From the IMG/VR virus record IMGVR_UViG_3300025395_000040, positions 1 to 23,377 of that record: a stretch of 23,377 nucleotides of DNA; one strand, given 5' to 3'. This document shows, piece after piece, positions 2,147 to 22,338 of this stretch (the stretch's first letter is position 1; each line of letters begins with the position of its first letter). The position numbers and the translations under genes were made by a program. This DNA comes from a virus. Below the pieces are notes generated by a model, which saw only the letters and a list, made by a program, of their open reading frames with translations, was not told where the DNA came from and searched no databases.

Positions 2147-2856
2147 CTTTTGAACGGATCTTTAGAATCAAAATCGACGAATTCTTCGGCTTCTTTTTCA
2201 ATGTCATCGTTATCTGCATTATCTATAAGATCTTCCATACTAGCTTCTTCAAGAATAAGGTAATCTCCATCTTCTGTAATCAACATATCACTATCTTCAG
2301 TCATAACAGACCAATTGAATATATCCAGATCATAATGTTTCTGAATAGCATCGATCTCAGGAATGCCAGTGTTGAACTTCTCGTTCGAATATTCAAACAC
2401 TTCGCATGTCATTTCCCATGTCTGAAGAGCACCCAACTGATAGAACATCTCATACTTATTGACATAACGAATAATAAAATGGCGTCTGTTCAGTGGGAAA
2501 TAAATGACATCGCCTTCGTTTGGTCTGAACTGATTAGTTGCCATCTGAACTTCATCGTTGAATACACGACGAGCAACCGAGAACACAACCTGATTACGAA
2601 TCTCAACACCAAACTTAGATAGAAACTCTCCATCTCCAGAGAATCCATCAATAGATTTAATATACATTTCAATAGGAATAGCGAGTTCATATGATGACTG
2701 ATCATCGGCGCCATAAACTGGATCATATTTGTTCAGCTTACGAGGAACATAATAAAGATCATGACCGTAAAAACGAATAGATTCTATTACTAAATTTTCA
2801 AGTAGTAATTGCTCCTGAGACGCTTTGAAATTGTTTACGAAAAAGTTAGTGGCCAT
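2143..2856 (-). CDS. gp14: Neck protein, gp14-like
   Basis: T4 gp14 works with gp13 to close the filled head and form the neck to which the tail binds. The 237-residue length is near that of T4-like gp14. The N-terminal half is typical (ATNFFVNNFKASQEQLLLEN, then RFYGHDLYYVPR and a conserved NEGDVIYFPLNRRHFIIRYV block around residues 113-132). The C-terminal 50 residues are highly acidic. The ATG at 2856 lies inside the last codons of the co-directional GIY-YIG gene (11-base overlap), so its ribosome site is now within that gene. Its stop overlaps the stop of the plus-strand endonuclease. Confidence 0.92.
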   Translation of the reverse strand: MATNFFVNNFKASQEQLLLENLVIESIRFYGHDLYYVPRKLNKYDPVYGADDQSSYELAIPIEMYIKSIDGFSGDGEFLSKFGVEIRNQVVFSVARRVFNDEVQMATNQFRPNEGDVIYFPLNRRHFIIRYVNKYEMFYQLGALQTWEMTCEVFEYSNEKFNTGIPEIDAIQKHYDLDIFNWSVMTEDSDMLITEDGDYLILEEASMEDLIDNADNDDIEKEAEEFVDFDSKDPFKS

Positions 2857-3430
2857 GTTTTAGATCCCAGTATCTTTTTCTGGCTGCAGCCATTTTTCTT
2901 TTTGTCTCTTCTGATTTGGGCGATTTTCCTTTTCCTGATCTATTTAGAGAAATTTTTCTTTTTGTCTCTTCCGAATGCGTATTACCAAACATAGGATTAG
3001 ATTCTCTATCATATGATCCAGAAGATCTTCTAGTATTTACCATTTTATTGATACTTTCTTCCGACAAACCTTTTTTATTTCTTTCTGCCAGATCTGGTCT
3101 TTTTTTACCTGAAATGCTAGCGCCAATTTTTCTTTTAGATTCTTCTGTGTGTTCTTTCAGATAAAACTTATCGTCGCAATTATGTCTATTATAATATTCT
3201 TCATTTGTAGCAGCATTCACAGCCTGTAGAATCTTAGCTTCTAGTTTTCTTATTTCCGATAGATTACCTTCTGCAATAATATGTCTGCTAAAATCCTCTG
3301 GTCTTTCATTATATTCTTCGAGCATATATTTACTAGAACACACATAACCATCATCTACTGAACCTTTATGGGATCCAACATACAACATATTAGTTTTTTT
3401 GTCTGACCAACAATAAACGAACGCTTCCAT
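2846..3430 (-). CDS. GIY-YIG homing endonuclease with NUMOD3 repeats
   Basis: A Seg-like free-standing homing endonuclease of 194 residues that would nick or cut gene-13/14 region DNA of endonuclease-free relatives and spread by repair. The N-terminal domain shows FVYCW as the GIY strand and LYVGSHKG as the YIG strand. KLEAKILQ (about residues 62-69) carries the likely catalytic Glu. The C-terminal half has NUMOD3-type DNA-binding repeats: TEESKRKIGASISGKK, SEESINKM, SEETKRKISLNRSGK and SEETKRKMAAARKR. It is inserted between genes 13 and 14 in the same direction, starting 2 bases after the gp13 stop and ending inside the gp14 start. An AGG lies 6-7 bases before the ATG. Confidence 0.9.
   Translation of the reverse strand: MEAFVYCWSDKKTNMLYVGSHKGSVDDGYVCSSKYMLEEYNERPEDFSRHIIAEGNLSEIRKLEAKILQAVNAATNEEYYNRHNCDDKFYLKEHTEESKRKIGASISGKKRPDLAERNKKGLSEESINKMVNTRRSSGSYDRESNPMFGNTHSEETKRKISLNRSGKGKSPKSEETKRKMAAARKRYWDLKHGH
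2892..2971 (-). repeat. 20-base direct repeat inside the GIY-YIG gene (tandem NUMOD3 motifs)
   Basis: An identical 20-base string occurs at 2892-2911 and 2952-2971, exactly 60 bases (20 codons) apart. It encodes the EETKRK core of two consecutive NUMOD3 repeats. A diverged third copy lies near 3127-3145. The near-identity at the DNA level suggests recent tandem duplication of a DNA-binding unit. Confidence 0.8.
2941..2948 (-). promoter_or_regulatory. Possible non-canonical late promoter for gp14 (TCTAAATA)
   Basis: Minus-strand TCTAAATA, a near match to TATAAATA, lies 85 bases upstream of the gp14 start, inside the 3' end of the homing endonuclease gene. Similar CTAAATA strings precede gp13 and the gene at 6831. 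No direct evidence of use. Confidence 0.3.
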
Positions 3431-3432
3431 AA

Positions 3433-4416
3433 TCAGCCTATCATGTCGGTCGCTGGAAGTGAATATGTATAGATCATTTCCTGCTCAAGTTTTTCTCTTT
3501 CGTCAGTAGCTTCATCATAGATCTTTTGACCATTAAATGACAAACCACCAGGAAGTTTCATTCCTTCGAACTTCTTTAGATTCTGACCCCATTGTTGTTT
3601 AATAAGAGACTCAGTATAACGAGCAAGCCAACGATCACCCCATGCTTTTGTATAAACATTTGGATCTACAATCTGATAAGCCTCAACAATAATAAAATTA
3701 CCAGGACCAATACGATTCCAGTCCATATCAATATAGAGTTTATTGTTATGTCTATTATACCTTAAAGGTTGTTTACCGACAAGCATTTGTTCAAGAAACT
3801 GAATATGACTCAATGCCATGTAATACGGAATCATTGAAACTGAAGTCAGCGTATAAAGATCGTTCAATGCGATCTGATAACGAATATTGAATAGGTTGTT
3901 TGTTCCGATAGCAGCGCCAGCGTCAAAGATATTAACAGCACCAATAATGTTATCCGGAAGAGGAATGTATCCACCTCTGCCAACTGTAAGAATAGCTCCT
4001 GATCCTGTATTTGAAGAAACTTCTGCTACTGGATCAAAATTATAGGCATAACCACCATTCAATACATCAACTGTAAGAACACCACCATTATCATCAACAG
4101 AAGAAACAACAGCAACTGCACCGTTACCAACGTCTCCTTTTGCGGTGGTGAATACAATGGCATCATTTGTCTGATAACCTGTACCACCAGCATTAACAGA
4201 TATCTGTTTTACAGTGGTAGGAAAATCGTTTTTCTGAACCAGATACTTATAAAATACCTTTTCCGAGCCATCAAAATGATAATCCCAGAAATATCTCAGA
4301 GCTTCATCGATACGATCATCCACCTGATCATCATCTACGTTAATCTCGATTACAGGCTTACCCAGCTTACGTAGGCAATATTCTGCGAATTCTTGTCTTG
4401 TTGTTGGAACAGCCAT
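3433..4416 (-). CDS. gp13: Neck protein, gp13-like, with an inserted glycine-repeat domain
   Basis: T4 gp13 joins the portal vertex and, with gp14, closes the packaged head. The N terminus (RQEFAEYCLRKLGKPVIEIN, then DDRIDEALRYFWDYHFDG) and the C-terminal part (YIPLPDNIIGAVNIFD, WGDRWLARYTESLIKQQWGQ) match T4-like gp13 as I know it. About residues 69-147 look inserted. They hold two copies of a unit of the type G-G-x-(G/A)-Y followed by (D/N)-G-A-x-x-x-V (GGTGYQTNDAIVFT... and GGYAYNFDPVAEVSS...), a repeat seen in other phage structural proteins. The start ATG has GAGGG 7 bases upstream. Confidence 0.92.
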   Translation of the reverse strand: MAVPTTRQEFAEYCLRKLGKPVIEINVDDDQVDDRIDEALRYFWDYHFDGSEKVFYKYLVQKNDFPTTVKQISVNAGGTGYQTNDAIVFTTAKGDVGNGAVAVVSSVDDNGGVLTVDVLNGGYAYNFDPVAEVSSNTGSGAILTVGRGGYIPLPDNIIGAVNIFDAGAAIGTNNLFNIRYQIALNDLYTLTSVSMIPYYMALSHIQFLEQMLVGKQPLRYNRHNNKLYIDMDWNRIGPGNFIIVEAYQIVDPNVYTKAWGDRWLARYTESLIKQQWGQNLKKFEGMKLPGGLSFNGQKIYDEATDEREKLEQEMIYTYSLPATDMIG

Positions 4417-4441
4417 TTTATACCCTCATGAGTCTTTTTAT

Positions 4442-4449
4442 TATTTAGT
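4442..4449 (-). promoter_or_regulatory. Possible non-canonical late promoter for gp13 (ACTAAATA)
   Basis: Minus-strand ACTAAATA lies 26 bases upstream of the gp13 start, overlapping the stop codon of the AMP-forming enzyme. It fits late-promoter spacing but differs from TATAAATA at two positions. Confidence 0.35.
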
Positions 4450-5174
4450 TATCCTTTGGAGGGGTTATTAAAATCTACCTCTTTATTGGTTCTACCTGCA
4501 TAGAATAGAATATCATCCACTACAACAGCTTTATCCTTGGTCCTATACCAGTCATTATAAATGCAAATATCACCTTTCACAACCAATTCGCCTTTTTCTA
4601 ATAACCAATCACAATATTTATCTGAACCCATAATAGTCATTCTATTTGGGCATAGAGCTTTTACTCTATTAACTTCTTCCATATTTTCAAAAGTATGATT
4701 GATAGCTATAGGGCCAATTTCACTCATACCCCAATTAGTTATCAGTTTGCATCCTCTAATAACGAATGCCTCTATAATATCCCAGGTTACAGGCTCGGCA
4801 CCACAAGTAATAGTTACTCCTGTCAGATCTAAATCCTGAAATCCTTTAGTTCTCATAATCGCTTTCGCATGCATGGGCGTGAGATGAGAATGAGTAAAAT
4901 TCTTTATTTTCTTTATCCATTTATATGGACTGAATACATCACATGTGACATGTCCACCTATCTCCAAAGCTGGCATAGTCTGACCAAGCAACCCACCTGC
5001 ATGTGTGAGTTTCATTACCGTATAAACTCTACTGTCTGCGGTAATTCCTTGAGCTTTACGAGCAACCTTATTAGCAGCAATTATCTTAGACAAAGGCTGA
5101 ACGTAATCTTTAGGAGGACCGGATGTTCCAGAACTACTTATTATGATTGTGGATAAAATATTGCTCTGTTCCAT
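4449..5174 (-). CDS. Minimal AMP-forming (ANL superfamily) adenylation enzyme
   Basis: A 241-residue adenylate-forming enzyme core. Full-length acyl-CoA synthetases are usually above 500 residues. The ATP-binding P-loop is at residues 13-22 (SSSGTSGPPK). A THAGGLL element follows at 57-63, then GAEPVTWD at 125-132, the A5-type NWGMSE at 147-152 (Glu152 would contact Mg-ATP), the A7-type YRTKD at 210-214 and GRTNKEVDF at 227-235. The region normally before the P-loop and the mobile C-terminal domain that supplies the catalytic Lys and thioesterification are both absent. It may therefore only adenylate a carboxylate, or need a partner. The ATG lies 41 bases inside the upstream DUF6356-like gene. 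No in-frame stop breaks it, so it looks intact rather than decayed. The substrate cannot be read from sequence. Confidence 0.8.
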   Translation of the reverse strand: MEQSNILSTIIISSSGTSGPPKDYVQPLSKIIAANKVARKAQGITADSRVYTVMKLTHAGGLLGQTMPALEIGGHVTCDVFSPYKWIKKIKNFTHSHLTPMHAKAIMRTKGFQDLDLTGVTITCGAEPVTWDIIEAFVIRGCKLITNWGMSEIGPIAINHTFENMEEVNRVKALCPNRMTIMGSDKYCDWLLEKGELVVKGDICIYNDWYRTKDKAVVVDDILFYAGRTNKEVDFNNPSKG

Positions 5175-5370
5175 CGGTCACTTTCTTAGCAAGTTTATAA
5201 GGGGTAAACGGAAAAAGAAAAGGAAAAAAAGCGTGTATTGTCCCTGTAATAACAGCTACAAATAACAAGAAGTTAAAATACATTGCCATATAACAATGTC
5301 TGAAATAACCACATTTAATAGTTTGTAGATGGTTAACATCAACTTCCGTAAAGTGAAACGTATCCTTCAT
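5134..5370 (-). CDS. Small DUF6356-like membrane protein
   Basis: A 78-residue protein. Residues about 29-55 are strongly hydrophobic (FNFLLFVAVITGTIHAFFPF) and likely form one membrane helix, followed by LFPFTPYKLAKKV. The HAFFPFLF...T pattern with a basic tail is what I remember of the DUF6356 family of alphaproteobacterial and phage proteins of unknown function. It overlaps the SGNH gene by 32 bases at its start (with GGAAG about 7 bases before the ATG) and the ANL gene by 41 bases at its end. This tight packing, plus a coherent hydrophobic segment, argues that it is a real gene rather than a shadow. Function unknown; membrane anchoring of a neighbour is possible. Confidence 0.7.
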   Translation of the reverse strand: MKDTFHFTEVDVNHLQTIKCGYFRHCYMAMYFNFLLFVAVITGTIHAFFPFLFPFTPYKLAKKVTDGTEQYFIHNHNK

Positions 5371-6049
5371 ATATTACTTCCGCAGCTCTTTGTTGTTCGC
5401 CTAATGTTAAGTAGTTTAAACTCTCCTGCGATACACCAGGAATACCTTTCACTATATTATTTAATGTAGTTCCTCTTAATATATATTGAGGTATATAAGA
5501 GAACTCTTCATTCTTACAGTGGTCAATCCAGCCATCAAATATAATAAACTTACATCCAGATTTCTGTAAATTATAAAGTATACTGGATATCATAATCTTT
5601 GACATTTCTAAATGCCATGCTTTATTCCAGAATGTATTGTAGACATGATATGTGAATTTCTTCATAGACTTATCTGTTGTGTGAGGAATTAAAGTCCTAC
5701 ACATTGGTTTTACTAATACACCGTTCTCGTTAATAGGTTTATCTAACAGACTAAATTTATTTTCTGTTAGCAAAGTAGACTGATAATCATAGTTTTCATT
5801 TACACCAATCTCTGTTCTATCAAACCCAGTAAGCTGAACAACGACCAGATCTTCAGGTTTCAAATCTATATTTTGTAGTATTCTGGCAATACGCCAGTTA
5901 CTTGTTCCTGGAAAAGAATGATCTATTAACTCCATATCGAGTTTATGAGAAAGCATAGTTGGCCATGCCATCTCTTTACGAGTATCCTCTGGTACTTGTT
6001 TATAGAAATTCCAACCAAAAGAAAGGCTATCTCCGAATGTATATAACAT
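5339..6049 (-). CDS. SGNH/GDSL hydrolase-like protein
   Basis: A 236-residue protein with the SGNH-family start: block I is FGDSLSFGWNF at residues 5-15 with the nucleophile candidate Ser8. Block II-like PGTSNWRIAR is at 47-56 and VVVQLTGFDRTEIG at 69-82 occupies the block III position, where GxND is usual. FIIFDGW at 168-174 is a core strand. The C-terminal block V, normally DxxH, reads YLTLGEQQRAAEV (213-225): the family-like helix is present but no His is in the expected place. It may be catalytically altered or use another residue. The start overlaps the stop of the upstream gene (TAATG). Esterase or acyltransferase action on a lipid or glycan would be typical of the family, but is not shown here. 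Confidence 0.7.
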   Translation of the reverse strand: MLYTFGDSLSFGWNFYKQVPEDTRKEMAWPTMLSHKLDMELIDHSFPGTSNWRIARILQNIDLKPEDLVVVQLTGFDRTEIGVNENYDYQSTLLTENKFSLLDKPINENGVLVKPMCRTLIPHTTDKSMKKFTYHVYNTFWNKAWHLEMSKIMISSILYNLQKSGCKFIIFDGWIDHCKNEEFSYIPQYILRGTTLNNIVKGIPGVSQESLNYLTLGEQQRAAEVIYEGYVSLYGS

Positions 6050-6831
6050 TATTCACCAAACCCAAATGGACATTTTGATTTTCTTTCTTCATTCCTCTTA
6101 ACCAAAGAAACAGTTCTCCTCCAACCTATAGATGTTCCTCTCTCATCATACATCTTAGTTTTCAATTCATCATCAGTAACCATATGATTCTTTAATATCA
6201 TTTTCTTATCAACCAGAGGAATAAAATGAACAACTGGTTGACCGACAGGAATATATATCTGTTGTTTAATATTCTTATTAATAGTCATGAATAAATTTGA
6301 AGAGCTCTGGGTATAGAAATTTACTACTCCAGGTAATACTTTAAAATTATAGTCCTCTAATGACCATTCTGGACCAATAGCGATAAAAGGAGCATTCTCT
6401 TTTACGTTTATATACCATGGGCTACGTAATTTTACGATATGATAATCTTTAAAACCAGGATCTACCTGATTAGATTTGTGCATAACAGGAGCTTCACCGT
6501 TTGAATAATGAAAAGAAAATACGTCTTTATCAACATTAAAAGCCAGATCACACCAGCTTTCTAACATAAATCCTCTTTTATATAACTCCAATAAACCATA
6601 ACAAGACCTGACTGTCCTAAGAGAATAATCTCTATTAAACCCAATAAGCCCATTCTCATTTATAGAATAGAAAGTACTATCTGCATTACTTTTCTTTGGG
6701 GGAGTTACTTTATCAAACCATTTAGGTTTTGATTTTCCGGCATATACCAGAGGAGCATACTTATATGCCGTTGTGTTTGATGTAAAACAATCTAAATATA
6801 TTTTAGGTGTTCTATGAAAAAAAGAAAACAT
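6049..6831 (-). CDS. Phage protein of unknown function (DUF6065-like?)
   Basis: A 260-residue intact protein with a good ribosome site (GGAG, 8-base spacer). I recall similar proteins of this length in T4-like cyanophages, with a Tyr/Trp-rich N-terminal half (YKYAPLVYAGKSKPKWFDK), a central PWYINVKENAPFIAIGPEWS block and a VGQPVVHFIPL segment near residue 200. The alternating strands ending in G-x-P-x-x-H-F-I-P-L suggest a beta-rich, possibly cupin-like fold, but no metal-binding set is clear. The family name DUF6065 is from memory and uncertain. It is the first gene of a minus-strand block running through SGNH, DUF6356-like and ANL genes with overlapping ends, so a joint role is plausible. 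Confidence 0.6.
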   Translation of the reverse strand: MFSFFHRTPKIYLDCFTSNTTAYKYAPLVYAGKSKPKWFDKVTPPKKSNADSTFYSINENGLIGFNRDYSLRTVRSCYGLLELYKRGFMLESWCDLAFNVDKDVFSFHYSNGEAPVMHKSNQVDPGFKDYHIVKLRSPWYINVKENAPFIAIGPEWSLEDYNFKVLPGVVNFYTQSSSNLFMTINKNIKQQIYIPVGQPVVHFIPLVDKKMILKNHMVTDDELKTKMYDERGTSIGWRRTVSLVKRNEERKSKCPFGFGE

Positions 6832-6847
6832 ATCAAAAGCTCCATGC

Positions 6848-6855
6848 TATAAATA
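6848..6855 (+). promoter_or_regulatory. T4-type late promoter for the plus-strand 66-residue gene
   Basis: Exact plus-strand TATAAATA, 23 bases upstream of the ATG at 6878. It is followed by a strong AGGAGAG ribosome site at 6867-6873. Spacing matches T4 late promoters. Confidence 0.8.
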
Positions 6856-6861
6856 TATCTA

Positions 6862-6869
6862 TATTTAGG
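6862..6869 (-). promoter_or_regulatory. Possible non-canonical late promoter for the gene at 6049-6831 (CCTAAATA)
   Basis: Minus-strand CCTAAATA lies 31 bases upstream of the ATG at 6831, back to back with the exact plus-strand promoter. Together they form a near-symmetric AT block (6848-6867). Confidence 0.35.
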
Positions 6870-6877
6870 AGAGTCAA

Positions 6878-7078
6878 ATGCAACAAATTAATATATCACA
6901 CCCAAAATCAGATAAAGTAACCATTAGTCAGAAAAAGATTTCTAACACTGAGAATATATTCTCACAAGAATATTCTCTTCTTGGTAGACCTACATTTACT
7001 ATCAAAACTTGGACAATTAGAACTGACTGGGGTCAAGATATTCCTACAAAGACAGAATATACTGATTTTACAAAATAA
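6878..7078 (+). CDS. Small plus-strand late protein of unknown function
   Basis: A 66-residue polar protein starting MQQINISHPKSDKVTISQKK and ending in a Thr/Trp-rich stretch (TFTIKTWTIRTDWGQDIPTK). It has no recognisable domain, signal peptide or membrane segment. Its reality rests on an exact late promoter and AGGAGAG ribosome site just upstream. It also fills an otherwise empty 247-base gap and ends exactly at the stop of the convergent Gly-rich gene. The strand is opposite to all neighbours, as is the homing endonuclease at 1550; this protein has no endonuclease motif. Confidence 0.7.
   Translation: MQQINISHPKSDKVTISQKKISNTENIFSQEYSLLGRPTFTIKTWTIRTDWGQDIPTKTEYTDFTK
6950..6977 (+). repeat. 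Double palindrome in the small plus-strand gene
   Basis: A perfect 14-base palindrome (GAGAATATATTCTC, 6950-6963) is followed after ACAA by GAATATTCTC (6968-6977), a partial second copy. The arms can pair locally or with each other. It could be a protein-binding site or an mRNA hairpin; it may also be chance in AT-rich coding sequence. Confidence 0.5.
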
Positions 7079-7082
7079 TCAG
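7062..7082. terminator. Weak dyad at the convergent gene ends, possible terminator
   Basis: CTGATT (7062-7067) and AATCAG (7077-7082) form an inverted repeat that spans both facing stop codons. There is no U-run on either strand, so intrinsic termination is doubtful. Confidence 0.2.
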
Positions 7083-7747
7083 TATCCCCAAGAAATAACC
7101 ACATAGCCATCCCCTCCTCGGTCTCCATCTCCACCAAAAGCACCTACGTCTCTTCCTCCAGGGCCTCCAGCACCACCACCACCAACATAAACAGTGATAA
7201 CTGCGCCCCAAGCAGGAGCGCCAGGATCTGTACGGTTCCATCTTCTTACACAATAACCACCAGCACCACCGCCGCCAGAGCCATTTCTACCAGCACCACC
7301 TCCTGCTCCTCCACCTACAGTTACATCTCCTCCATAACCACCACCAGGTCCGCCACCATAACCAGGGCCTCCAGCACCACCACCACCTGCTCCTGAACCT
7401 AAAGAAGCAGAATCTCCACCAGCGCCTCCGGCACCACCAGCGTAACCATACGCAAAACCATCAGAAGCGTAGCCACCACCGCCACCTCCCCCGCCAGCCC
7501 ACATTTGAACCGTCATGTTTATGTAATTCTGAACTGTCCAATTTTGAGTAGAATAAAACGCTTGAGATCCAGGATCAATACCTTTACGGCAGTAGGCGTC
7601 AGAAATTTTAACTTGAGATCTTTTTACAGTATTCTTAATGAGAATACGAAACAGATCATCATCAAAATCAAGCTGTGTGTTTTTTGGGCGATCGAGCTCG
7701 ATATTTATATCACTAAAACTTATCTGACCACTACAAGGCGTTGTCAT
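7079..7747 (-). CDS. Gly/Tyr-rich tail-type protein (polyglycine fold)
   Basis: A 222-residue protein. Residues 1-55 (SGQISFSDINIEL ... KISDAY) resemble the short N-terminal module of many phage tail proteins that begins 'SGxISxxDIxxE' and ends in 'ISDxY'. From about residue 80 it becomes a polyglycine domain with regular Gly-Gly-X runs and many Tyr residues, closing with VYVGGGGAGG and GYVVISWGY, as in phage glycine-rich adhesin-like domains. It is probably a virion surface component. The ATG has AGAGGA 6 bases upstream and overlaps the end of the halogenase gene by 17 bases, so translation may be coupled. An exact TATAAATA lies inside its 5' coding part. Confidence 0.75.
   Translation of the reverse strand: MTTPCSGQISFSDINIELDRPKNTQLDFDDDLFRILIKNTVKRSQVKISDAYCRKGIDPGSQAFYSTQNWTVQNYINMTVQMWAGGGGGGGGYASDGFAYGYAGGAGGAGGDSASLGSGAGGGGAGGPGYGGGPGGGYGGDVTVGGGAGGGAGRNGSGGGGAGGYCVRRWNRTDPGAPAWGAVITVYVGGGGAGGPGGRDVGAFGGDGDRGGDGYVVISWGY
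7702..7709 (-). promoter_or_regulatory. Late promoter-like octamer inside the Gly/Tyr-rich gene
   Basis: Exact minus-strand TATAAATA within codons for DINI near the start of the Gly-rich gene. No gene starts shortly downstream on this strand, so it may be chance or may boost the genes from 6831 onward. Confidence 0.25.
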
Positions 7748-9350
7748 TATAGTCCTCTTGTTTGTAAATCGTTTCTTTCAGAAACTGATAGCTACTTAGC
7801 AGAGTAATAACATATTCCTCTACCTCTGTTTTGTATTTATTATATGTTCTTTTGGTATATGTAATCTCTTCTATTTTAGCCATAGGATCTCTCGAGTTAT
7901 TAAAATCATTATATAACATAAGTTCTGGAGTTGAAATAGATTTAACTCCCATGCCTGCAGCTACAAATAGATTATTCTGAAATGCATATGCATATTTTCT
8001 GGCCGTTACAATCATATCCATAACTCCTGGATATTGATTTTGTATAGTATAATAATTACTAAAAGACTCCTTAAAATAATCTATTTCTTGAGTGCACCAA
8101 TGCCAAAATGGAGTATCTGTTCTATCAGAAAGAGCATAAAACATTGAAGAAAATTCTTTATTCTTTAATAAGGCGTTAACACAAGAAAAGTTATAAGCAT
8201 CTACTTCAGTTCTTGTTAAATAACCATTTCTTCTATTTAAAGTATCAACCAGTTTAATAAGAGTATCATAGGTGGTTATTAGACCAGATAATTCCATAGG
8301 TTCAACAAAACCAAAACTTAAACCAATTGCTACTACATTCCTTATCCATGGCTTTTTGTGATAGCCATTTCTTATTCTGAAATGTTTAAATTCAGCCTTA
8401 TCTGCTCTATCTTTATTTGTTTTAGATAAATGCTCTCTAAACTCGGTTTCTGCTTCTTCTTGTGTGCAAAATTTCGATGAAAAATTATAACCAACTGAAA
8501 GATTATCCCACAAAGGAATAACCCAAGAAGCACCATTTTTCATACCAGTATATTCGGTATAATTCTTAAGCTCTGTTTCTCTATCAATATATGGAATATC
8601 TGCTACTATTGCAGAATCTATAGCGAGGCAATCATGAAAATCTTCATAGATCCCTCCCATCCATTTCTCTAATAGAATAGCATTATAACCTGTGCAATCT
8701 ACGAATAGATCTGCAGAAACTGTTTCTCCATCATATAATACTATCTCTTTAAGCTCTCCGTTGTCTTTAAACACAGGAGATTTAACATTACAATTTATAA
8801 CTTCTACGCCATTAGGAATAGCAACATTATGTTTCATCCATTCACCAAGAGCATTAAGATCAAAATGAAAGGCAGTATCATATTTAAAATTAAAGATTTT
8901 TAATTTATTATCGTGATTATATGTCTGTTTATTATGCTTGGTCATCAGACTATTAGATGTAGCATAAAATTCAGCAAATGATTCAGAACCAAACTCTTTA
9001 GGAAAAAACATAGCAAGTTCTGACAATGCATTAATACCCGAAGGCTTATCGCTATAATCTAAATCATAGATGAACGGTATCTGAAAAGATTCGTTTGCTT
9101 TATAATTTGTAAACTTATCAGCATTCTTGTAGGTAGCGTTACAGAACGGCATCCATTCTTTATCTTCTATACCAAGCATATAGAATAATCTTCTGAAATA
9201 CGGAATGCTGCTCTCGGCAGAACCGACAACAGTTTTTATATCAGTTTCAATAACTGTAATTTTTATATGCTTGCAGAGTTTAGCAATAGTAGCGGCTACT
9301 ATCCAACCAGAGCATTCACCACCAACCACAACAACATTATCTACTTTCAT
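7731..9350 (-). CDS. Flavin-dependent (tryptophan-type) halogenase, VirX1-like
   Basis: FADH2-dependent halogenase of 539 residues, similar in length to PrnA/RebH. The FAD motif is VGGECSGW at residues 9-16. The GxGExxxP-like segment is VVGSAESSIP at 41-50. The catalytic Lys, which carries the hypohalous acid in PrnA/RebH (Lys79), is Lys75 in CNATYK. The WxWxIP signature is altered to ASWVIP (274-279). FVEPMELSG (348-356) keeps the catalytic Glu (Glu353) but has Leu-Ser where Ser-Thr is usual near the halide site. LFVDCTGYNA (215-224) is also family-typical. Viral members exist in cyanophages; VirX1 of Syn10 is reported to prefer iodide. A flavin reductase is not in this window. The gene follows a fibre gene and overlaps the Gly/Tyr-rich gene by 17 bases. 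The substrate is unknown. Confidence 0.88.
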   Translation of the reverse strand: MKVDNVVVVGGECSGWIVAATIAKLCKHIKITVIETDIKTVVGSAESSIPYFRRLFYMLGIEDKEWMPFCNATYKNADKFTNYKANESFQIPFIYDLDYSDKPSGINALSELAMFFPKEFGSESFAEFYATSNSLMTKHNKQTYNHDNKLKIFNFKYDTAFHFDLNALGEWMKHNVAIPNGVEVINCNVKSPVFKDNGELKEIVLYDGETVSADLFVDCTGYNAILLEKWMGGIYEDFHDCLAIDSAIVADIPYIDRETELKNYTEYTGMKNGASWVIPLWDNLSVGYNFSSKFCTQEEAETEFREHLSKTNKDRADKAEFKHFRIRNGYHKKPWIRNVVAIGLSFGFVEPMELSGLITTYDTLIKLVDTLNRRNGYLTRTEVDAYNFSCVNALLKNKEFSSMFYALSDRTDTPFWHWCTQEIDYFKESFSNYYTIQNQYPGVMDMIVTARKYAYAFQNNLFVAAGMGVKSISTPELMLYNDFNNSRDPMAKIEEITYTKRTYNKYKTEVEEYVITLLSSYQFLKETIYKQEDYNDNAL

Positions 9351-9362
9351 TTTAACTCCAGT

Positions 9363-10403
9363 TTATTTTAAGCGAGCCTTTAATTCATTAATTTCTTTCT
9401 GTTGTTCTTTATAACCCTCGATCATAAGAGCAACAAGCTGGGCATATTTAACTGCTTTAGTTCCATTTGGTCTCGTGCGCACGAGCTCGGGCACGACCTT
9501 TTCAAGTTCCTGAGCAGAAACACCAACATCATGTTTATATACGAAATAACCGTCTTCACCACCACGTGATTCAATGTGATCATCTTTCCAATCAAACTCA
9601 TAACCTGTAAGAGAAAGTATCTTATCTCTGGCATTCTTAATTGGTGTCATATTTTCTTTTAGATTTGCATCAGAAGCAAAGAATCCAGTAATATCGTTAG
9701 TAGCACGGATTTCACCAGCACCACCATAAGACTGAGTACCAACTCCTAACGTATAACAATAGAATGTAGTTCCAACTGTAGCACTGCCACCAATAGCACA
9801 ACTACCTTGAATAGTAGCTCCTTGCCTAATAATTGTAGCGCCTGCAACATCAAGACCACCTCCAGTTACAGTAAGAGCTCCACCAATAGAAGTACTTTTT
9901 TGAATAGTTGCAGTTCCTGTTACAAGTAAATCGTCATCGATAGTAGTATATCCAGAGACAGTAAGAGTACCACCAACAGTTGCATTTCCAGCAACATTAA
10001 GATTGTTATTAAATATAACAGGACCGTTAAGAGTTAATTTTCCTCCTACAGAAAGATCAAGAGAAACAGCTAAACTTTCTTGAGCATTAATATTACCAGC
10101 AACAGTAAGAATACCACTTACATTTTCATTACCTTTAACGTCTAACTGACCTCCGATAATAGCATAACTTGTAGTAGTAAGAGGTGCCTGAATAGTTGTA
10201 GCGGCTTTTACATTAAGCGTACCACCAATATCAACATTCTGCCCAATAGTTGTATTACCGAATGCACGAAATGTTCCGTTAACATCCAAATTAGCTTGTG
10301 GAGCATTAGTACAGATACCGACTCTGCCCGAATTGCCCATGGCAAAGATAAGATTATTATTTACTACTAAGCCATTTTCTGAGCGAAAGTCAAGATCAGC
10401 CAT
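9363..10403 (-). CDS. Tail fibre with C-terminal S74 intramolecular chaperone
   Basis: A 346-residue trimeric-fibre protein. After a short N-terminal part (VGICTNAPQANLDVNG, common in fibres) it has about ten repeats of the form G-x-L-x-V-x-G-x-x-x-(I/V), consistent with a beta-helical shaft from residues 40 to 230. The C terminus is a peptidase S74 domain: SDANLKEN at 244-251, the YEFDWK strand at 268-273, VGVSAQELEKVVPELV at 293-308 and KYAQLVALMIEGYKEQQKEI as the final coiled helix. By analogy with endosialidase chaperones, self-cleavage is expected between Ser244 and Asp245, releasing about 102 residues after trimer folding. AAGGA lies before the ATG, and an exact late promoter is at 10434-10441. 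Confidence 0.9.
   Translation of the reverse strand: MADLDFRSENGLVVNNNLIFAMGNSGRVGICTNAPQANLDVNGTFRAFGNTTIGQNVDIGGTLNVKAATTIQAPLTTTSYAIIGGQLDVKGNENVSGILTVAGNINAQESLAVSLDLSVGGKLTLNGPVIFNNNLNVAGNATVGGTLTVSGYTTIDDDLLVTGTATIQKSTSIGGALTVTGGGLDVAGATIIRQGATIQGSCAIGGSATVGTTFYCYTLGVGTQSYGGAGEIRATNDITGFFASDANLKENMTPIKNARDKILSLTGYEFDWKDDHIESRGGEDGYFVYKHDVGVSAQELEKVVPELVRTRPNGTKAVKYAQLVALMIEGYKEQQKEINELKARLK
9472..9485. repeat. 14-base GC-rich palindrome in the S74 domain coding region
   Basis: CTCGTGCGCACGAG is a perfect palindrome in an otherwise AT-rich gene, encoding LVRTR. It could fold as a 5-bp stem with a GCGC loop. Its role, if any, is unknown. Confidence 0.45.
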
Positions 10404-11028
10404 TTTTATTTTCCTTTTTAGTTGTCTTTGGCTTATTTATAGTTTTTGTCTTAGTTGGTGGCTTTTTAGCTGTTGCTCGAGGAGCTCTTGGCTTCTTTAT
10501 TGTAACAACAGGATCTGGTTGGGTCAAGATCTGAATACCGATCTTCATACCACACCACTCAATCTCCACACCAGCTTTTGGGGTGTTTTTGAAAGTAATA
10601 GTCGATCCATCAGAATCATCTAACTCGTCGATAGAAACCTTAATACCGTCTTCATATACGTTCATTGATCCTGGAGTGTATCCACCAGGAATAGTGTATG
10701 TAGACGTCTTACCATCTGCAATGAATACTGTGTTAATAAATCTAAACTGTGGAGTAATGTCGCCCCAATAAATCGAATCACCGTCGGTCACTAATACCTG
10801 GCCAGGCACGCCTAATGAACCATTAGCAGATATTGCCTTAATGGTTGCTGTATTAGATACATCGATGTCTGTGTTATGGGAGCCTATTTCGAATATCTTA
10901 CTACCGTCGGAGGAATACATTACCTCATCGGCCATATTCAGGGCAAGTTCACCCGTCTTTAGATTAGCAGTTGTTGGCGCACGACCCGATACGGATGTAC
11001 GCTTGATTTGAAATAAATTGTTTGCCAT
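10396..11028 (-). CDS. Fibre-like protein with Mtd_N-type start and lysine-rich tail
   Basis: A 210-residue protein. Residues 1-50 (ANNLFQIKRTSVSGRAPTT, then LKTGELALNMADE and YSSDGSKIFEIGS) match the N-terminal module shared by many phage tail fibres and the major tropism determinant. GVPGQVLVTDGDSIYW at 73-88 is a common fibre linker. Residues 97-165 form a small beta domain (YTIPGGYTPGSMNVYEDGIK). The last 34 residues (177-210) are strikingly basic: 13 Lys/Arg, 5 Pro and a single acidic residue, like a histone-H1-type tail. The gene end overlaps the start of the next fibre by 8 bases and contains its late promoter. AAGGTG precedes the ATG. A role in tail or fibre assembly is likely; what the basic tail does is unknown. 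Confidence 0.75.
   Translation of the reverse strand: MANNLFQIKRTSVSGRAPTTANLKTGELALNMADEVMYSSDGSKIFEIGSHNTDIDVSNTATIKAISANGSLGVPGQVLVTDGDSIYWGDITPQFRFINTVFIADGKTSTYTIPGGYTPGSMNVYEDGIKVSIDELDDSDGSTITFKNTPKAGVEIEWCGMKIGIQILTQPDPVVTIKKPRAPRATAKKPPTKTKTINKPKTTKKENKNG
10434..10441 (-). promoter_or_regulatory. T4-type late promoter for the S74 fibre gene
   Basis: Exact minus-strand TATAAATA, 31 bases upstream of the ATG at 10403, within the lysine-rich tail codons of the preceding gene. Confidence 0.75.
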
Positions 11029-11044
11029 CTGGCACCTTTGTCAA

Positions 11045-11058
11045 TCGGTATATACCGA
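11045..11058. repeat. 14-base palindrome upstream of the gene at 10396-11028
   Basis: TCGGTATATACCGA is perfectly palindromic and ends 17 bases before the ATG at 11028, just upstream of the AAGGTG ribosome site. It could be a protein-binding site or a 5-bp leader hairpin with an ATAT loop. No late promoter octamer is present in this gap. Confidence 0.4.
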
Positions 11059-11070
11059 GGATTAATATTA

Positions 11071-11280
11071 TCAAAAAGTCTCAGAAGTATCTACTTCTTT
11101 TTTAGCAGCTTTTCTGGCATTTGCCCTTTCAGCTTTTTCTAATTTTTCCGTAAGCCCAAGAATAATCTTTTCAGAATATTGTATCTGGGCAGAATGTAGA
11201 AGTCTGGCTTTCGTCAGACTCTCTATTTCTTTTAATAAAGTTTCAATATAGAAACCAGCGAAATCAGGATGCATCTCCAT
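11071..11280 (-). CDS. Small coiled-coil protein
   Basis: A 69-residue helical, charged protein (LLKEIESLTKARLLHSAQIQ, then a Glu/Lys/Ala-rich segment). It lies alone in a gap between two fibre genes. The GTGAGG ribosome site is about 9 bases before the ATG. A regular spacing of Leu/Ile suggests a coiled coil, such as a fibre chaperone or oligomerisation factor, but no family is recognised. Start and strand agree with the neighbours. Confidence 0.6.
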   Translation of the reverse strand: MEMHPDFAGFYIETLLKEIESLTKARLLHSAQIQYSEKIILGLTEKLEKAERANARKAAKKEVDTSETF

Positions 11281-11355
11281 CTTATATACCTCACTTTTTT
11301 GCTTTACATATGTTTCATATTACAGTATAATCATAAATGTCCTGATGTAGATATA

Positions 11356-12666
11356 TTAGAACAATCCACCATCTAGAGTAGAATATACTAATGACGTTCC
11401 GTTAGACTGAAGAATCGTTCCATCAGCACCAATCAGTAACTCATCGAATCCAGCAGTAGTATTACCAACAAACAAACCACCATGAGAGACAGTATTTCTA
11501 CCAGTACCACCTGAGACAACAGGAAGAGGAGCAGTAAGAATCAGCTGACCAACAGAGATAGTATTAGCAGTAATATTAACAGAAACACTACTATTAGCAT
11601 TGATGTCGATAGAGTTATTATCTACGTTAAACGCACCACCAACACCATATGGAGCAAGATACGCTTGCAGAGTACCAATAGAGGCACCAGGATCAACTGT
11701 AGGATTAGTATTAGGATTAGTAGCTGTACCATACAGTTTAAAGAATGGATTAGTAGGAGTAGATCTACCAGCGATACGAGCAATACCAGAGTACCACTTA
11801 TTACCGCCACCGCCAGCAGGAGAGAACCAACCAGAGTCGACAACGTCAGTAGTTTCGTTACCAGAAGCAAACTCAACTAAGTTATCACGGATAGTAATAG
11901 AAATAGTATTAATTGTAGTAACTGAACCGGAAACAACCAGATTACCAGCAATCTCGGCATTATTAACACGGAGGCTTGAACCGATAGCGTTAATTGCAAG
12001 GCCAGTAACATTAACATTCGAAGAAATATCAAATGAACCAGTAGCAACTGCTAATTCTTTACCAGTGAACTGGACGTTACCGGTAAATACTACGTCATCT
12101 TGAGCTTTTATGTAGTTGTTTGCAGGGAATCCACCAAGATGTAACGCATCATTAGCGATACCAGAGAATGAAGTAGAGTTGATATAAGCAACAGTACCTG
12201 TGCCGATAGTAAGAGTATTACCAACGAAAAGAGTATTAGAATCAGAGTTAAACGTGAAGCCAATCGAAGCAGATAAGACGTTAGAACCGTTAAACTGAAC
12301 CCATGTATTCTGACCAGCTGGACGAGCTTCAAGAGTACCTGGATCAACCCAATAAAGATCTCCGATAGCGTCGGCGGCAAGAACTTCGCCAGCAACACCG
12401 AAACGACCATTCGCGAACAGCTTGGTCGGAACAAGATTAGCAGTAATAACTTTGTCTATAGCACCGATAGAGTTGGCTACGAGAGCTTGGTTGTTGGTAA
12501 GAGTACCAGGAACCATTCTACCGCCAACACGGATCGTAGCAGAACCGTCTGGAAGACCAATATGGAGAGTATTACCCGACTGTGTAAACGCCAACTCACC
12601 TGGTAACAAACCAGTTACTGTGGCGTTAGACGTAGATCTTTTGATCTGAATTCTGTTATTGGCCAT
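11356..12666 (-). CDS. Tail fibre protein with Mtd_N-type start
   Basis: A 436-residue fibre. It begins ANNRIQIKRSTSNATVTGLL followed by PGELAFTQSGNTLHIG, the N-terminal module shared with the 210-residue protein at 10396-11028. Linker-type segments follow (FGVAGEVLAADAIGDLYWVD), then GLY-, ASN- and VAL-rich shaft repeats (NVNVTGLAINAIGSSLRVNN). A VVSGGTGRNTVSHGGLFVGN motif and a final GTILQSNGTSLVYSTLDGGLF-type end (last residues LDGGLF) complete it; both are common in fibres of marine T4-like phages. It is probably a homotrimeric, baseplate-attached fibre or side spike. An exact late promoter lies 39-46 bases upstream. Confidence 0.85.
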   Translation of the reverse strand: MANNRIQIKRSTSNATVTGLLPGELAFTQSGNTLHIGLPDGSATIRVGGRMVPGTLTNNQALVANSIGAIDKVITANLVPTKLFANGRFGVAGEVLAADAIGDLYWVDPGTLEARPAGQNTWVQFNGSNVLSASIGFTFNSDSNTLFVGNTLTIGTGTVAYINSTSFSGIANDALHLGGFPANNYIKAQDDVVFTGNVQFTGKELAVATGSFDISSNVNVTGLAINAIGSSLRVNNAEIAGNLVVSGSVTTINTISITIRDNLVEFASGNETTDVVDSGWFSPAGGGGNKWYSGIARIAGRSTPTNPFFKLYGTATNPNTNPTVDPGASIGTLQAYLAPYGVGGAFNVDNNSIDINANSSVSVNITANTISVGQLILTAPLPVVSGGTGRNTVSHGGLFVGNTTAGFDELLIGADGTILQSNGTSLVYSTLDGGLF

Positions 12667-12704
12667 TGTCGGTCCTTTTTCTTGTTCGAATAACTATTTC
12701 AGTC

Positions 12705-12712
12705 TATTTATA
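12705..12712 (-). promoter_or_regulatory. T4-type late promoter for the 436-residue fibre
   Basis: Exact minus-strand TATAAATA in the short gap between the genes at 12715-13062 and 11356-12666, 39 bases upstream of the fibre ATG. Confidence 0.75.
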
Positions 12713-12714
12713 TT

Positions 12715-13062
12715 TTAGAATTCCCCACCATCAAGAACACCTGCGACATAAGCAAGATCCAGTGGTTTGACGATATAATCGTTTGATTTTGTATCATAAC
12801 AAAGTGTAGCTCCTTGAACCTGAGACTCGATAACAACGTCTGCGAGCGTATCGATAGAGCCTCCACCGCCTCCACCCTGAGGAACGAATGGTAGATTCTT
12901 AATAGTAATCGTATTGTCAGTAGTAATTACTGAATTTTTACGATGAGAACCAACATCGTATACTGTTCTATTATAAACTTTTTTGGCTGGATCTATGCCT
13001 ACGTTGATCTTCTGAGACTTCGGTTCTACAATCTTGCTGAGAACTTCTTTCTTGAACATCAT
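12715..13062 (-). CDS. Short fibre-associated virion protein ending in LDGGEF
   Basis: A 115-residue protein. Residues 1-60 are polar and basic, followed by a Gly linker (PQGGGGGGS) at about 61-69. The C-terminal part (IDTLADVVIESQVQGATLCY, then YIVKPLDLAYVAGVLDGGEF) ends like the 436-residue fibre next to it (LDGGLF). The NTLxDV..(S)..Q...L.Y pattern is a frequent phage-fibre linker. The start ATG overlaps the upstream stop (ATGA), so translation is probably coupled. It is likely a small baseplate or fibre-connector protein; the family is not named. Confidence 0.7.
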   Translation of the reverse strand: MMFKKEVLSKIVEPKSQKINVGIDPAKKVYNRTVYDVGSHRKNSVITTDNTITIKNLPFVPQGGGGGGSIDTLADVVIESQVQGATLCYDTKSNDYIVKPLDLAYVAGVLDGGEF

Positions 13063-13400
13063 AGAACCTGCTTAGTTGACTGCGGAGTTACCGTAGCGAT
13101 CCCCTCGAGCACTCTCGAGATTGTATTGGCTGCTGGGTCATAAAGCTGGACATCATAGACGTATCTCTGAGGAGTAAGAATACTAGTTTGATTAGCATCC
13201 AATGCCAGCGTTACAGATCCATCGGCTGTATTTATAGAACAATCAAAGTTAACAGCGTTTGTTGAAGTATACCATTTACGTAATTGAGAACTTGCTCTAA
13301 ACCCTTCCAGACGCAATGGATCTCCATTCTCATCGGACAAATTGATAGTTACCGAATAAGTGGTTCCTTGGTCTATAACAAGGTTGGCTTTTGTTGCCAT
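13059..13400 (-). CDS. Small Ig-like beta-sandwich virion protein
   Basis: A 113-residue protein with alternating strands: ANLVIDQGTTYSVTINLSDE at the start, LEGFRASSQLRKWYTS in the middle and YVYDVQLYDP followed by RVLEGIATVTPQSTK at the end. I recall this pattern as a recurring short protein in T4-like cyanophage tail modules, and it resembles BppU or long-tail-fibre-connector type Ig-like domains. It begins in a TAATG overlap with the upstream gene and ends in ATGA with the downstream one. It is therefore one unit of a tightly packed tail-accessory operon. Role inferred as baseplate/fibre connector. Confidence 0.72.
   Translation of the reverse strand: MATKANLVIDQGTTYSVTINLSDENGDPLRLEGFRASSQLRKWYTSTNAVNFDCSINTADGSVTLALDANQTSILTPQRYVYDVQLYDPAANTISRVLEGIATVTPQSTKQVL
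13229..13236 (-). promoter_or_regulatory. Late promoter-like octamer upstream of the gene at 12715-13062
   Basis: Exact minus-strand TATAAATA within the Ig-like gene, 167 bases upstream of the next ATG at 13062. It could boost the short LDGGEF protein and the fibre behind it, or be chance. Confidence 0.35.
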
Positions 13401-13978
13401 TACAGAGCATTCCTCGATAATTTAAATATAAACGAGGCAGCTGTTGTAGCTGCAAGTAATTGAACTTTTGTCCCATTTTTTATAGCGTTAAATGTAGCAA
13501 ATTGTGTCTTATTCCAAAGAGTAGCATATTCTGTCATATAAACTTGAATATCGTCATGAATAAGAACTATTTTAGTAGAAATATAACTAGTTGTCGCAGG
13601 ATCTTTCAATACAACAAAATATTCAACTCCAGCAAAAGAATCCATTGGCCATTCGTCAATAACAGCATTAGCACCACCAATAATAGTGCCATTAGAAGTA
13701 GTTGTTGGCGAAAGAACCCAAGATCCATCTGCAGTTAAGAAATAATCTCCCGAGGCTTTTTGTGCATTTGTCGGAGCATATATTGTCGTGTTTACTGAAT
13801 TATTACCGATACATACAGCATTAGACCACATAGTTCCAGTAATCTGAGCATTACCTGGAGTTGTATTAGAGTCGCATGTGACTACAATAGAAGAAAGAAC
13901 GTCAGCGCATTCGTTCGTTCTATTTCTCCAATAATCAAATGTATTGGTTAGATTAGTATTAGCAATATTGGCTACCAT
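13400..13978 (-). CDS. Short tail fibre/baseplate protein
   Basis: A 192-residue protein. The N terminus (NLTNTFDYWRNRTNECADVL) carries the TFDxWRxRTNE motif seen at the start of several baseplate-linked proteins in T4-like cyanophages. The C-terminal 100 residues (VEYFVVLKDPATTSYISTKI, VLIHDDIQVYMTEYATLWNK) match a common fibre-tip domain whose hallmark is an IHDG...EY...F.TF...NG..V.L pattern. The middle SGDYFLTADGSWVLSP is a linker. Start and stop both overlap neighbours as TAATG. It is likely a short fibre attached to the baseplate. Confidence 0.75.
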   Translation of the reverse strand: MVANIANTNLTNTFDYWRNRTNECADVLSSIVVTCDSNTTPGNAQITGTMWSNAVCIGNNSVNTTIYAPTNAQKASGDYFLTADGSWVLSPTTTSNGTIIGGANAVIDEWPMDSFAGVEYFVVLKDPATTSYISTKIVLIHDDIQVYMTEYATLWNKTQFATFNAIKNGTKVQLLAATTAASFIFKLSRNAL

Positions 13979-14184
13979 TACTTTTCCGCTTTCTCTAATA
14001 GCTTCTCAAGAAGCATTTTCACATCTTTCATTGTTTCTTCAACTTTAACTAACCTATCTTCATGGGTAGTTAAATTTTTCATAAGTTTTTTCTGTCTTTT
14101 ATAAGCATCCAGGGCTGTATTATCTACGTTTAATATAGCTCCTGGATTCGATTCTGATCTAACAAAACCATCATTATTAATCAT
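13978..14184 (-). CDS. Small coiled-coil virion-associated protein
   Basis: A 68-residue protein: an N-terminal segment (GFVRSESNPGAILNVDNTAL) with a recognisable S-x-x-N-P-G-A-x-L-N-x-D-N motif seen in small proteins of T4-like phages, then AYKRQKK and a leucine-rich coiled coil (VKVEETMKDVKMLLEKLLEK). It lies directly after the giant DUF4815 gene. Unusually, its ATG shares its A with the last base of an exact late promoter (14184-14191). Only transcripts from further upstream could therefore carry the full reading frame and its AGG ribosome site. Confidence 0.72.
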   Translation of the reverse strand: MINNDGFVRSESNPGAILNVDNTALDAYKRQKKLMKNLTTHEDRLVKVEETMKDVKMLLEKLLEKAEK

Positions 14185-14191
14185 ATTTATA
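14184..14191 (-). promoter_or_regulatory. T4-type late promoter overlapping a start codon
   Basis: Exact minus-strand TATAAATA whose last base is the A of the ATG at 14184. Expected transcription start is near 14178, inside codon 3 of the 68-residue gene. It more likely serves the four genes from 13978 down. Confidence 0.6.
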
Positions 14192-21534: not shown

Positions 21535-22338
21535 CTACTGTTTGATCCACTGACCATTATTTTTTACATACATTGCTAATACTTGAGTCCATTGACCGTT
21601 ATTTCTTACGAAAATATTGGATGGTTTTACCCACTGACCATTGTATTTAATAGACATATTTTGTGTTGGCGAAGTCGGACCAGGGGTGTATTCAATGACG
21701 ATGAGACCTTGAGTTCCAGTTCCTGGAGAAGCTAAATTAGAAGTACCACCGCCACCAGCACCAAAACTGCCACCAGAGCCACCATTACCTCCAAATCCTC
21801 CACCAGATCCTCCACCACCACAACCATACCCATTACCGAATTCGTTGCCTGGAGATCCTGACTGACCACTCGTACTACCAGGAGTTGGCGCACCAGCACC
21901 ACCTGCCCCAGCATCACCATTGCCGCCAGATCCACCATAATTGCTACCTGCAGCCCCACTACCACCATTTCCATTTGGACCAGCAGCACCACCTCCACCA
22001 CCTCCAGTAGTACCAGATCCACCACCAGTACCACCAGTGTATAAAACATCACCAGCAGTGCCAGATCCAGGAGATTGCCCAGAACCACCAGTGGCACAAA
22101 TAGTTGACGTATCAATAAACCAGCTTGTTCCAGAAATACCACCAACAGAATAATTAATTACATTACGTTTTGTTAAAGATATATTTGATTTTCTTGCATA
22201 ACCGCCACCACCGCCACCATTTTGATTACCACCAGTAGCTCCACCACCTATACAATGAATAATATTGTCTGCACTATTCCAATCATCTGGAACAGTCCAC
22301 TGACTACCACTGGTTAGATATATGAATTGACGAGCCAT
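21535..22338 (-). CDS. Glycine-rich tail protein with three NGQW repeats
   Basis: A 267-residue protein. An N-terminal beta segment (FIYLTSGSQWTVPDDWNSAD) leads into a Gly-rich domain of about residues 32-215, closed by QGLIVIEYTP, the usual boundary of phage glycine-rich domains. The C terminus holds three NGQW motifs spaced exactly 14 residues apart (233-236, 247-250, 261-264), each preceded by a short (V/I)-(K/R)-x-N strand. Proteins of this kind are tail or fibre-tip adhesins in other phages. AAGG lies about 9 bases before the ATG, and the gene starts 3 bases after the upstream stop. Confidence 0.8.
   Translation of the reverse strand: MARQFIYLTSGSQWTVPDDWNSADNIIHCIGGGATGGNQNGGGGGGYARKSNISLTKRNVINYSVGGISGTSWFIDTSTICATGGSGQSPGSGTAGDVLYTGGTGGGSGTTGGGGGGAAGPNGNGGSGAAGSNYGGSGGNGDAGAGGAGAPTPGSTSGQSGSPGNEFGNGYGCGGGGSGGGFGGNGGSGGSFGAGGGGTSNLASPGTGTQGLIVIEYTPGPTSPTQNMSIKYNGQWVKPSNIFVRNNGQWTQVLAMYVKNNGQWIKQ

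Follow-up and report, generated by a model that had tools for sequence, protein, structure and literature searches.

A gene block with a VirX1-like halogenase homologue and a minimal ANL protein in the variable region between the fibre and neck genes of a T4-like phage

Among the described systems closest to the genes considered here, VirX1 of cyanophage Syn10 (PDB 6QGM) is a characterised halogenase that prefers iodide and for which aromatic, heterocyclic and phenolic substrates have been reported (PMC8407142). As to the role of phage halogenases, reviews merely speculate on host metabolites or antibiotic protection (PMC10452541, PMC2984593). Here we analyse a block of six genes on the minus strand (positions 4449-9350) of IMG/VR virus record IMGVR_UViG_3300025395_000040, which comes from a T4-like phage; the complete record of 23,377 bases, coding mostly on the minus strand, is referred to as the window. 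In order of transcription direction, the block encodes a VirX1-like halogenase homologue (HAL), a Gly-rich protein (GLY), a member of phrog_7084 (UNK260), an SGNH-fold protein, a small DUF6356 protein and a minimal ANL protein. The type of locus is already present in cyanophage genomes, and the window's combination of genes is new.

In the Kyanoviridae phage S-RIM44, the site between the fibre genes and gp13 holds two halogenases, a phrog_7084 gene and several 2-oxoglutarate- and Fe(II)-dependent (2OG-Fe(II)) oxygenases, followed by gp13-gp16. Similarly, a halogenase and 2OG-Fe(II) oxygenases stand directly behind the fibre genes of Syn9, S-CREM1, P-TIM40 and S-WAM1. The window shares with S-RIM44 the position of the locus, the halogenase together with phrog_7084, and the downstream series gp13-gp14-gp15-gp16; because these are present in deposited cyanophage genomes, both the position and the gene pair are known in kind. 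However, the window has SGNH, DUF6356 and ANL genes in place of the oxygenases (the six block genes, 4449-9350, gave no match to any oxygenase family), and two GIY-YIG-like genes lie inside its neck genes. A preliminary description of the window had proposed a chemical-modification cassette at this site, and the conserved position of halogenase and oxygenase genes in cyanophages supports that part of the proposal. In S-CREM1 (L001, 11628-17118) and Syn9 (L002, 11576-17667), long runs of 2OG-Fe(II)/JmjC-type oxygenase genes behind fibre and halogenase genes resemble a set of enzymes that would hydroxylate fibre proteins; the S-CREM1 run also holds a gene annotated as "collagen-like".

Table 1. 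Features of the block and its flanks in the window
Feature	Coordinates	Strand	Basis or remark
Tail-fibre protein with C-terminal S74 chaperone	9363-10403	-	5' boundary of block
HAL, VirX1-like flavin-dependent halogenase homologue, 539 amino acids, eroded FAD/WxWxIP motifs	7731-9350	-	PF04820, phrog_2928, 6QGM
GLY, Gly-rich fibre-tip-like protein (candidate), Gly = 68/222 residues	7079-7747	-	Homologues in three lineages
Small open reading frame between GLY and UNK260, opposite strand, 66 amino acids	6878-7078	+	Open reading frame list
UNK260, phrog_7084 family, predicted dUTPase-like beta-clip fold	6049-6831	-	phrog_7084 match and structure model
SGNH-fold protein, GDS serine kept, C-terminal catalytic His apparently absent	5339-6049	-	Lipase_GDSL_2 (weak), Foldseek
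DUF6356 small membrane-type protein	5134-5370	-	DUF6356, 5e-9
ANL, minimal AMP-binding protein, 241 amino acids, P-loop to A8	4449-5174	-	AMP-binding, 3.3e-16
gp13 neck protein (head-tail adaptor Ad2)	3433-4416	-	2e-40; 3' boundary of block
CTAAATA late-promoter-like motif upstream of UNK260	6862-6868	-	Motif scan, position only
CTAAATA, second copy, upstream of gp13	4442-4448		Motif scan, position only

Comparison with related phages, in which gene calls are mechanical open reading frames (ORFs), reveals a block that is real but mosaic, and the six genes are not one fixed system. In lineage A (L008-L012, with L012 beginning at UNK260) the order GLY-UNK260-SGNH-DUF6356-ANL-gp13 is kept, four of the genes being 53-71% identical to those of the window and GLY 43%. 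Lineage B (L031-L034 and L039) carries GLY-UNK260-SGNH-gp13, and lineage C (L159) carries GLY-UNK260-SGNH with no further family match downstream in the stretch examined. The halogenase gene is absent from the fibre-to-neck site of all three lineages. Since the contigs within A and within B are near copies, independent support amounts to the three lineages and the window; even so, the grouping is beyond chance, because a second lineage repeats five of the genes in the same order. Single-sequence scans of IMG/VR with the window's HAL and UNK260 found no relatives; those of both proteins were recovered by alignment-based scans.

The preliminary description is borne out in its account of the six genes, their order and their bounds (the S74 fibre gene and gp13), all of which agree with the ORF coordinates and family matches. 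Its idea of a single conserved unit has to be given up, as related lineages can do without HAL or without ANL, and ANL is also found on its own elsewhere in T4-like genomes. Its authors had taken scattered occurrence in relatives as the observation that would speak against linkage; ANL and the halogenase do occur individually in this way, but the argument against linkage goes only part of the way, because UNK-SGNH(-DUF6356-ANL) stays linked across lineages. The order expected in related phages is thus found for five genes in lineage A, but without HAL.

The ends of neighbouring genes, described earlier as overlapping, do overlap at HAL/GLY (17 nucleotides), UNK260/SGNH (1 nucleotide), SGNH/DUF6356 (32 nucleotides) and DUF6356/ANL (41 nucleotides), but GLY and UNK260 lie 247 nucleotides apart. 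The fibre gene is separated from HAL by 12 nucleotides, and ANL from gp13 by 32. Because the 247-nucleotide gap with its opposite-strand ORF splits GLY from UNK260, the block probably consists of two transcription or translation units. An opposite-strand ORF of 76-88 amino acids, different in sequence, occupies the same gap in the three related lineages. Counts of late-promoter motifs were not taken as evidence, position alone being used: CTAAATA occurs 5 times in the window against 8.1 expected, which is not above chance, and the motif TATAAATA 9 times against 4.4 expected.

HAL is matched by Pfam PF04820 (Trp_halogenase, 4.6e-77) and phrog_2928 (2e-107), and is homologous to VirX1 over its full length (E value 9e-121, about 38% identity). 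Homologues annotated as prnA or tryptophan halogenase genes occur in 65 phage records. In a tree of 116 distinct homologues from phages, HAL included, the protein is placed within the VirX1-type clade (support 0.998), whose usual next gene is UNK, the family of UNK260; its terminal branch measures 1.19 against a median of 0.17. At the 69 alignment columns with 90% or higher conservation among the other halogenases, HAL deviates in 17, the median sequence in 1.

The alignment shows that these deviations affect motifs of the flavin adenine dinucleotide (FAD)-dependent halogenases. The FAD loop GGGxxG (GxGxxG pattern) reads GGECSG, with Glu for the third Gly (column G12), which is Gly in 113 of 115 other sequences. 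WxWxIP reads AxWxIP, the first Trp being present in 115/115 others; GES reads AES, EPLESTG reads EPMELSG, and column H404, His in every other homologue, is Phe. The changes include those at G12, G45, W274, G285, L352 and H404. HAL retains the catalytic lysine K75 (K79 of VirX1) and E350/E353, which are invariant in the alignment. Because the FAD-loop, GES, Trp, EPLESTG and H404 columns are changed, canonical flavin-dependent halogenation by HAL is doubtful: the window's protein probably no longer carries out standard FADH2-dependent halogenation, and the gene is probably under loss or re-purposed. These changes are seen in a single contig, the only one from which this HAL is known (a near-identical contig, L013, spans only part of ANL through gp15). 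With VirX1 and the cyanophage prnA products HAL thus has in common full-length homology, the catalytic Lys and Glu region and a UNK-family partner at the locus, whereas the window differs from VirX1-type loci in the Gly-rich gene between HAL and UNK260 and in the lack of 2OG-Fe(II) oxygenases after them. Elsewhere, one phage locus (L139/L140, 6548-11070) carries 3-4 tandem halogenase paralogues, two of which depart strongly from the conserved columns.

UNK260 belongs to phrog_7084 (9e-19), and this family is the usual partner of VirX1-like halogenases. Homologues stand beside a halogenase in Syn9/Syn10 (gp43), S-CREM1 (where the gene is annotated "triphosphate nucleotidohydrolase"), S-RIM44 and P-TIM40. 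In IMG/VR, 79 loci were recruited by halogenase alone, and UNK lies less than 1 kb downstream of it in 45 and immediately upstream in 2; recruitment by UNK alone gave 39 loci, among them 24 with a halogenase at most 4 kb upstream and 9 from the Gly-rich lineages that lack one. The two frames overlap in 47 of the 49 directly adjacent pairs, and UNK is the next gene in 35/40 other members of the clade that contains HAL. Most VirX1-type halogenases therefore come with one dUTPase-fold partner as a concrete two-gene unit among fibre and neck genes, which points to virion or surface chemistry. We found no paper in the literature naming the halogenase-phrog_7084 pairing. Opposite-strand "GP15" matches in some halogenase-recruited loci were set aside, as they look like spurious cross-hits.

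An AlphaFold2 model of UNK260, built with 52 sequences (predicted local distance difference test score, pLDDT, 84.9), has dUTPases as its best PDB matches (Foldseek 3.5e-4, probability 1.00, target template-modelling score 0.61) and so appears to share the beta-clip fold of trimeric dUTPases and dCTP deaminases. It differs from these enzymes in its conserved set, the residues invariant in the family being C77, G87, D95 and H118, and in the absence of the motif-3 Asp from the window's lineage. Instead of the catalytic-Asp motif GxxDxxY, UNK260 reads LPGVVNFYTQ; GILDPxY is found in most halogenase-linked cyanophage-type members and is absent from the window and its sister lineages. No Pfam or NCBIfam family matched UNK260, so its assignment to a recognised family of either collection was rejected, and the PDB sequence search was weak. 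Distant phrog_7084 relatives with no halogenase nearby, among them those of haloarchaeal tailed viruses, adjoin ribonucleotide reductase in HSTV-4 (L171, 5902-6783) and S-RIM4 (L173, 4944-5738).

GLY, noted earlier simply as Gly/Tyr-rich, adjoins HAL after the S74 fibre gene, and its homologues in three lineages are each encoded directly behind an S74 fibre gene. Its N-terminus is weakly similar (E value ~0.01) to a protein of Serratia phage BF encoded directly after the tail fibre gene. By analogy with the Gly-rich receptor-binding tips of T-even-like phages, of which the polyglycine-rich adhesin of phage S16 is an instance as cited within PMC6957217, GLY is a candidate fibre-tip-like protein. 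The two vague labels of the preliminary description, "Gly/Tyr-rich" and "unknown", can accordingly be sharpened to a Gly-rich protein resembling a fibre tip and a predicted dUTPase-fold partner of VirX1-type halogenases. A second Gly-rich protein, of 267 amino acids with C-terminal NGQW-type repeats, is encoded among the fibre genes at 21535-22338 (-).

ANL contains the A3 P-loop, A5, A7 and the start of A8, as do acyl-CoA synthetases, MenE and feruloyl-CoA synthetase of the ANL superfamily, but unlike these it has neither an N-terminal region before the P-loop nor the C-terminal domain with the A10 Lys. Phage and SAR11 homologues of similar extent keep SSGTSG-PK, WGM.E, T.D and GR, the invariant columns being S15, G16, G19, W148, G149, M150, E152, T212, D214, G227 and R228. 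The window's protein ends 13 residues past the A8 "GR", and several phage homologues and all four from SAR11 end at GR itself. Because phages and a SAR11 operon keep the same extent, the short form is not an artefact, and truncation by assembly or frameshift was rejected. Genes of this extent are found on 23 viral contigs, at 48-71% identity save for one near copy of the window; tblastn gave no match in 50,697 isolated phage records.

The overlapping DUF6356/ANL pair is common to phages and Pelagibacterales chromosomes, and the minimal ANL is present in full length in 4/197 Pelagibacterales genomes. On SAR11 contigs (L148-L150, L162 and L164), it lies in an operon of SDR, DUF6356, minimal ANL and a sugar-dehydrogenase-like gene, with the housekeeping genes argG and folD on the same contigs and photolyase/cryptochrome-like genes alongside. 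In other phages, ANL keeps modification-type company: its neighbours are GNAT-like or sulfotransferase-like frames (labels given by eye to clusters c7, c15 and c17, Pfam giving no supporting match for those tested), or halogenase, P450 and radical SAM genes. One phage-classed contig (L028, IMGVR_UViG_3300040751_004487, 2542-16470; also L030) carries a biosynthetic-looking cluster of radical SAM-SPASM, glycosyltransferase, methyltransferases, P450, a halogenase-like protein directly followed by minimal ANL, a second radical SAM, an Asp/Asn hydroxylase-like protein, two DUF6356 and a beta-ketoacyl synthase, then thymidylate synthase and peroxiredoxin.

The SGNH-like label given earlier holds for the fold and the nucleophile: Foldseek places the model with TesA and GDSL proteins (probability 1.00), and the GDS block G6 D7 S8 is invariant. 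It holds less well elsewhere, as the Lipase_GDSL_2 match (7e-4) is weaker than the Pfam cutoff. Unlike TesA-like hydrolases, the protein appears to have no His in the DxxH region, its last 59 residues (178-236) holding an invariant Tyr213 instead; the position of DxxH is inferred from sequence, the model's pLDDT being moderate (65.7). No tblastn match to this protein was found in 50,697 isolated phage records. HAL and, as judged from sequence, this protein have thus lost canonical catalytic residues.

What might these genes do together? The reading we favour, tentatively and as rather less than an even bet, is an accessory late module in a variable fibre-to-neck locus that would activate a carboxylate and decorate the Gly-rich fibre tip or the host surface. 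It would comprise two units, HAL and GLY coupled to the fibre genes, and UNK260-SGNH-DUF6356-ANL coupled through overlapping frames. ANL may activate a small carboxylic acid at the expense of ATP, DUF6356 could keep the activated acid at the membrane as an anchor, and the SGNH-fold protein would bind or hand on the acyl group. Late in infection, the Gly-rich receptor-binding tip, which we consider the most likely attachment target, or a glycan or lipid of the host surface would then be decorated and adsorption altered. Several observations speak against this. UNK relatives outside halogenase loci adjoin ribonucleotide reductase genes; ANL is found next to UvsY/UvsW in another T4-like group with none of the other block genes, so it can act alone; and the missing HAL motif residues and SGNH His region mean that either protein may be non-enzymatic. 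Finally, the SAR11 pair sits with SDR and photolyase-like genes, which suggests metabolism over virion decoration.

This last context also feeds an alternative that we consider unlikely, though still credible: that the DUF6356-ANL pair derives from a Pelagibacterales-type operon and, during infection, activates a metabolite or lipid precursor of the host, the fibre site being an insertion hot-spot. Such an origin would fit the operon described above, with its overlapping pair, SDR and sugar-dehydrogenase-like genes and argG/folD contigs, and the several genome positions at which phages carry ANL. However, in the window and in lineage A the set is bound to the fibre/gp13 site alongside UNK and SGNH, and UNK-SGNH persists in lineages B and C, where no ANL was seen.

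Somewhat more doubtful is the view that HAL, SGNH and ANL have lost catalysis and now have a role in binding or assembly at the fibre tip or in the baseplate-neck region. The preliminary description had assumed the ordinary chemistry of each family, and of this HAL's Lys and Glu, the ANL ATP-site motifs and the SGNH GDS block remain, but the HAL FAD loop and Trp gate, the SGNH His and the ANL C-terminal domain with its A10 lysine do not. As judged from sequence, three of the four enzyme-like proteins thus lack standard catalytic parts. Against a wholly non-catalytic set stand the ANL ATP-site motifs kept across phages and hosts, the retained K75 and E350/E353 of HAL, and the short ANL of bacterial chromosomes, far from any fibre gene.

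A chance gathering of unrelated cargo in a hyperplastic region seems to us quite improbable. T4-like cyanophages are known to have such regions (PMC2984593), and ANL and HAL are gained and lost independently, but the overlapping frames of UNK-SGNH-DUF6356-ANL keep their order at 53-71% identity, and the HAL-UNK and DUF6356-ANL pairs recur. That the halogenase and UNK260 make a halogenated or otherwise modified base is scarcely credible: the predicted dUTPase-like fold, the GILDPxY-type motif of cyanophage UNK proteins and the ribonucleotide reductase neighbours in HSTV-4 and S-RIM4 would suit it, but structural genes surround the locus, the motif Asp has been lost in the UNK lineages of the window, the invariant C77, G87, D95 and H118 are not recognised as a dUTPase motif set, and the substrates reported for VirX1 are aromatic, heterocyclic and phenolic compounds (PMC8407142).

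Within the favoured reading of an accessory late module, a more specific version, which we think improbable as it stands, is an undescribed two-component acyl-activation unit of phages and some SAR11, in which the ATP-binding half of ANL and DUF6356 would charge a carboxylate at the membrane and, here, an SGNH-fold carrier or transferase would pass it to the Gly-rich fibre tip. If true, the virus would encode a post-translational decoration of its receptor-binding protein. The occurrence of the half-size ANL with DUF6356 in both phages and SAR11 raises the question of whether the ATP-binding half can function without the C-terminal domain.

Outside the block, the window runs from baseplate and fibre genes through the block to gp13, gp14, gp15, gp16 and the first part of gp17. 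The gp14 of this phage is similar to that of T4-like phages of Stenotrophomonas, Sinorhizobium, Caulobacter and cyanobacteria. Scans for tRNA genes and Rfam families gave no matches in the window. The two GIY-YIG-like (SegE-type) genes lie between gp13 and gp14 (2846-3430, -, labelled by eye) and between gp14 and gp15 (1550-2146, +), the latter on the strand opposite to the neck genes.

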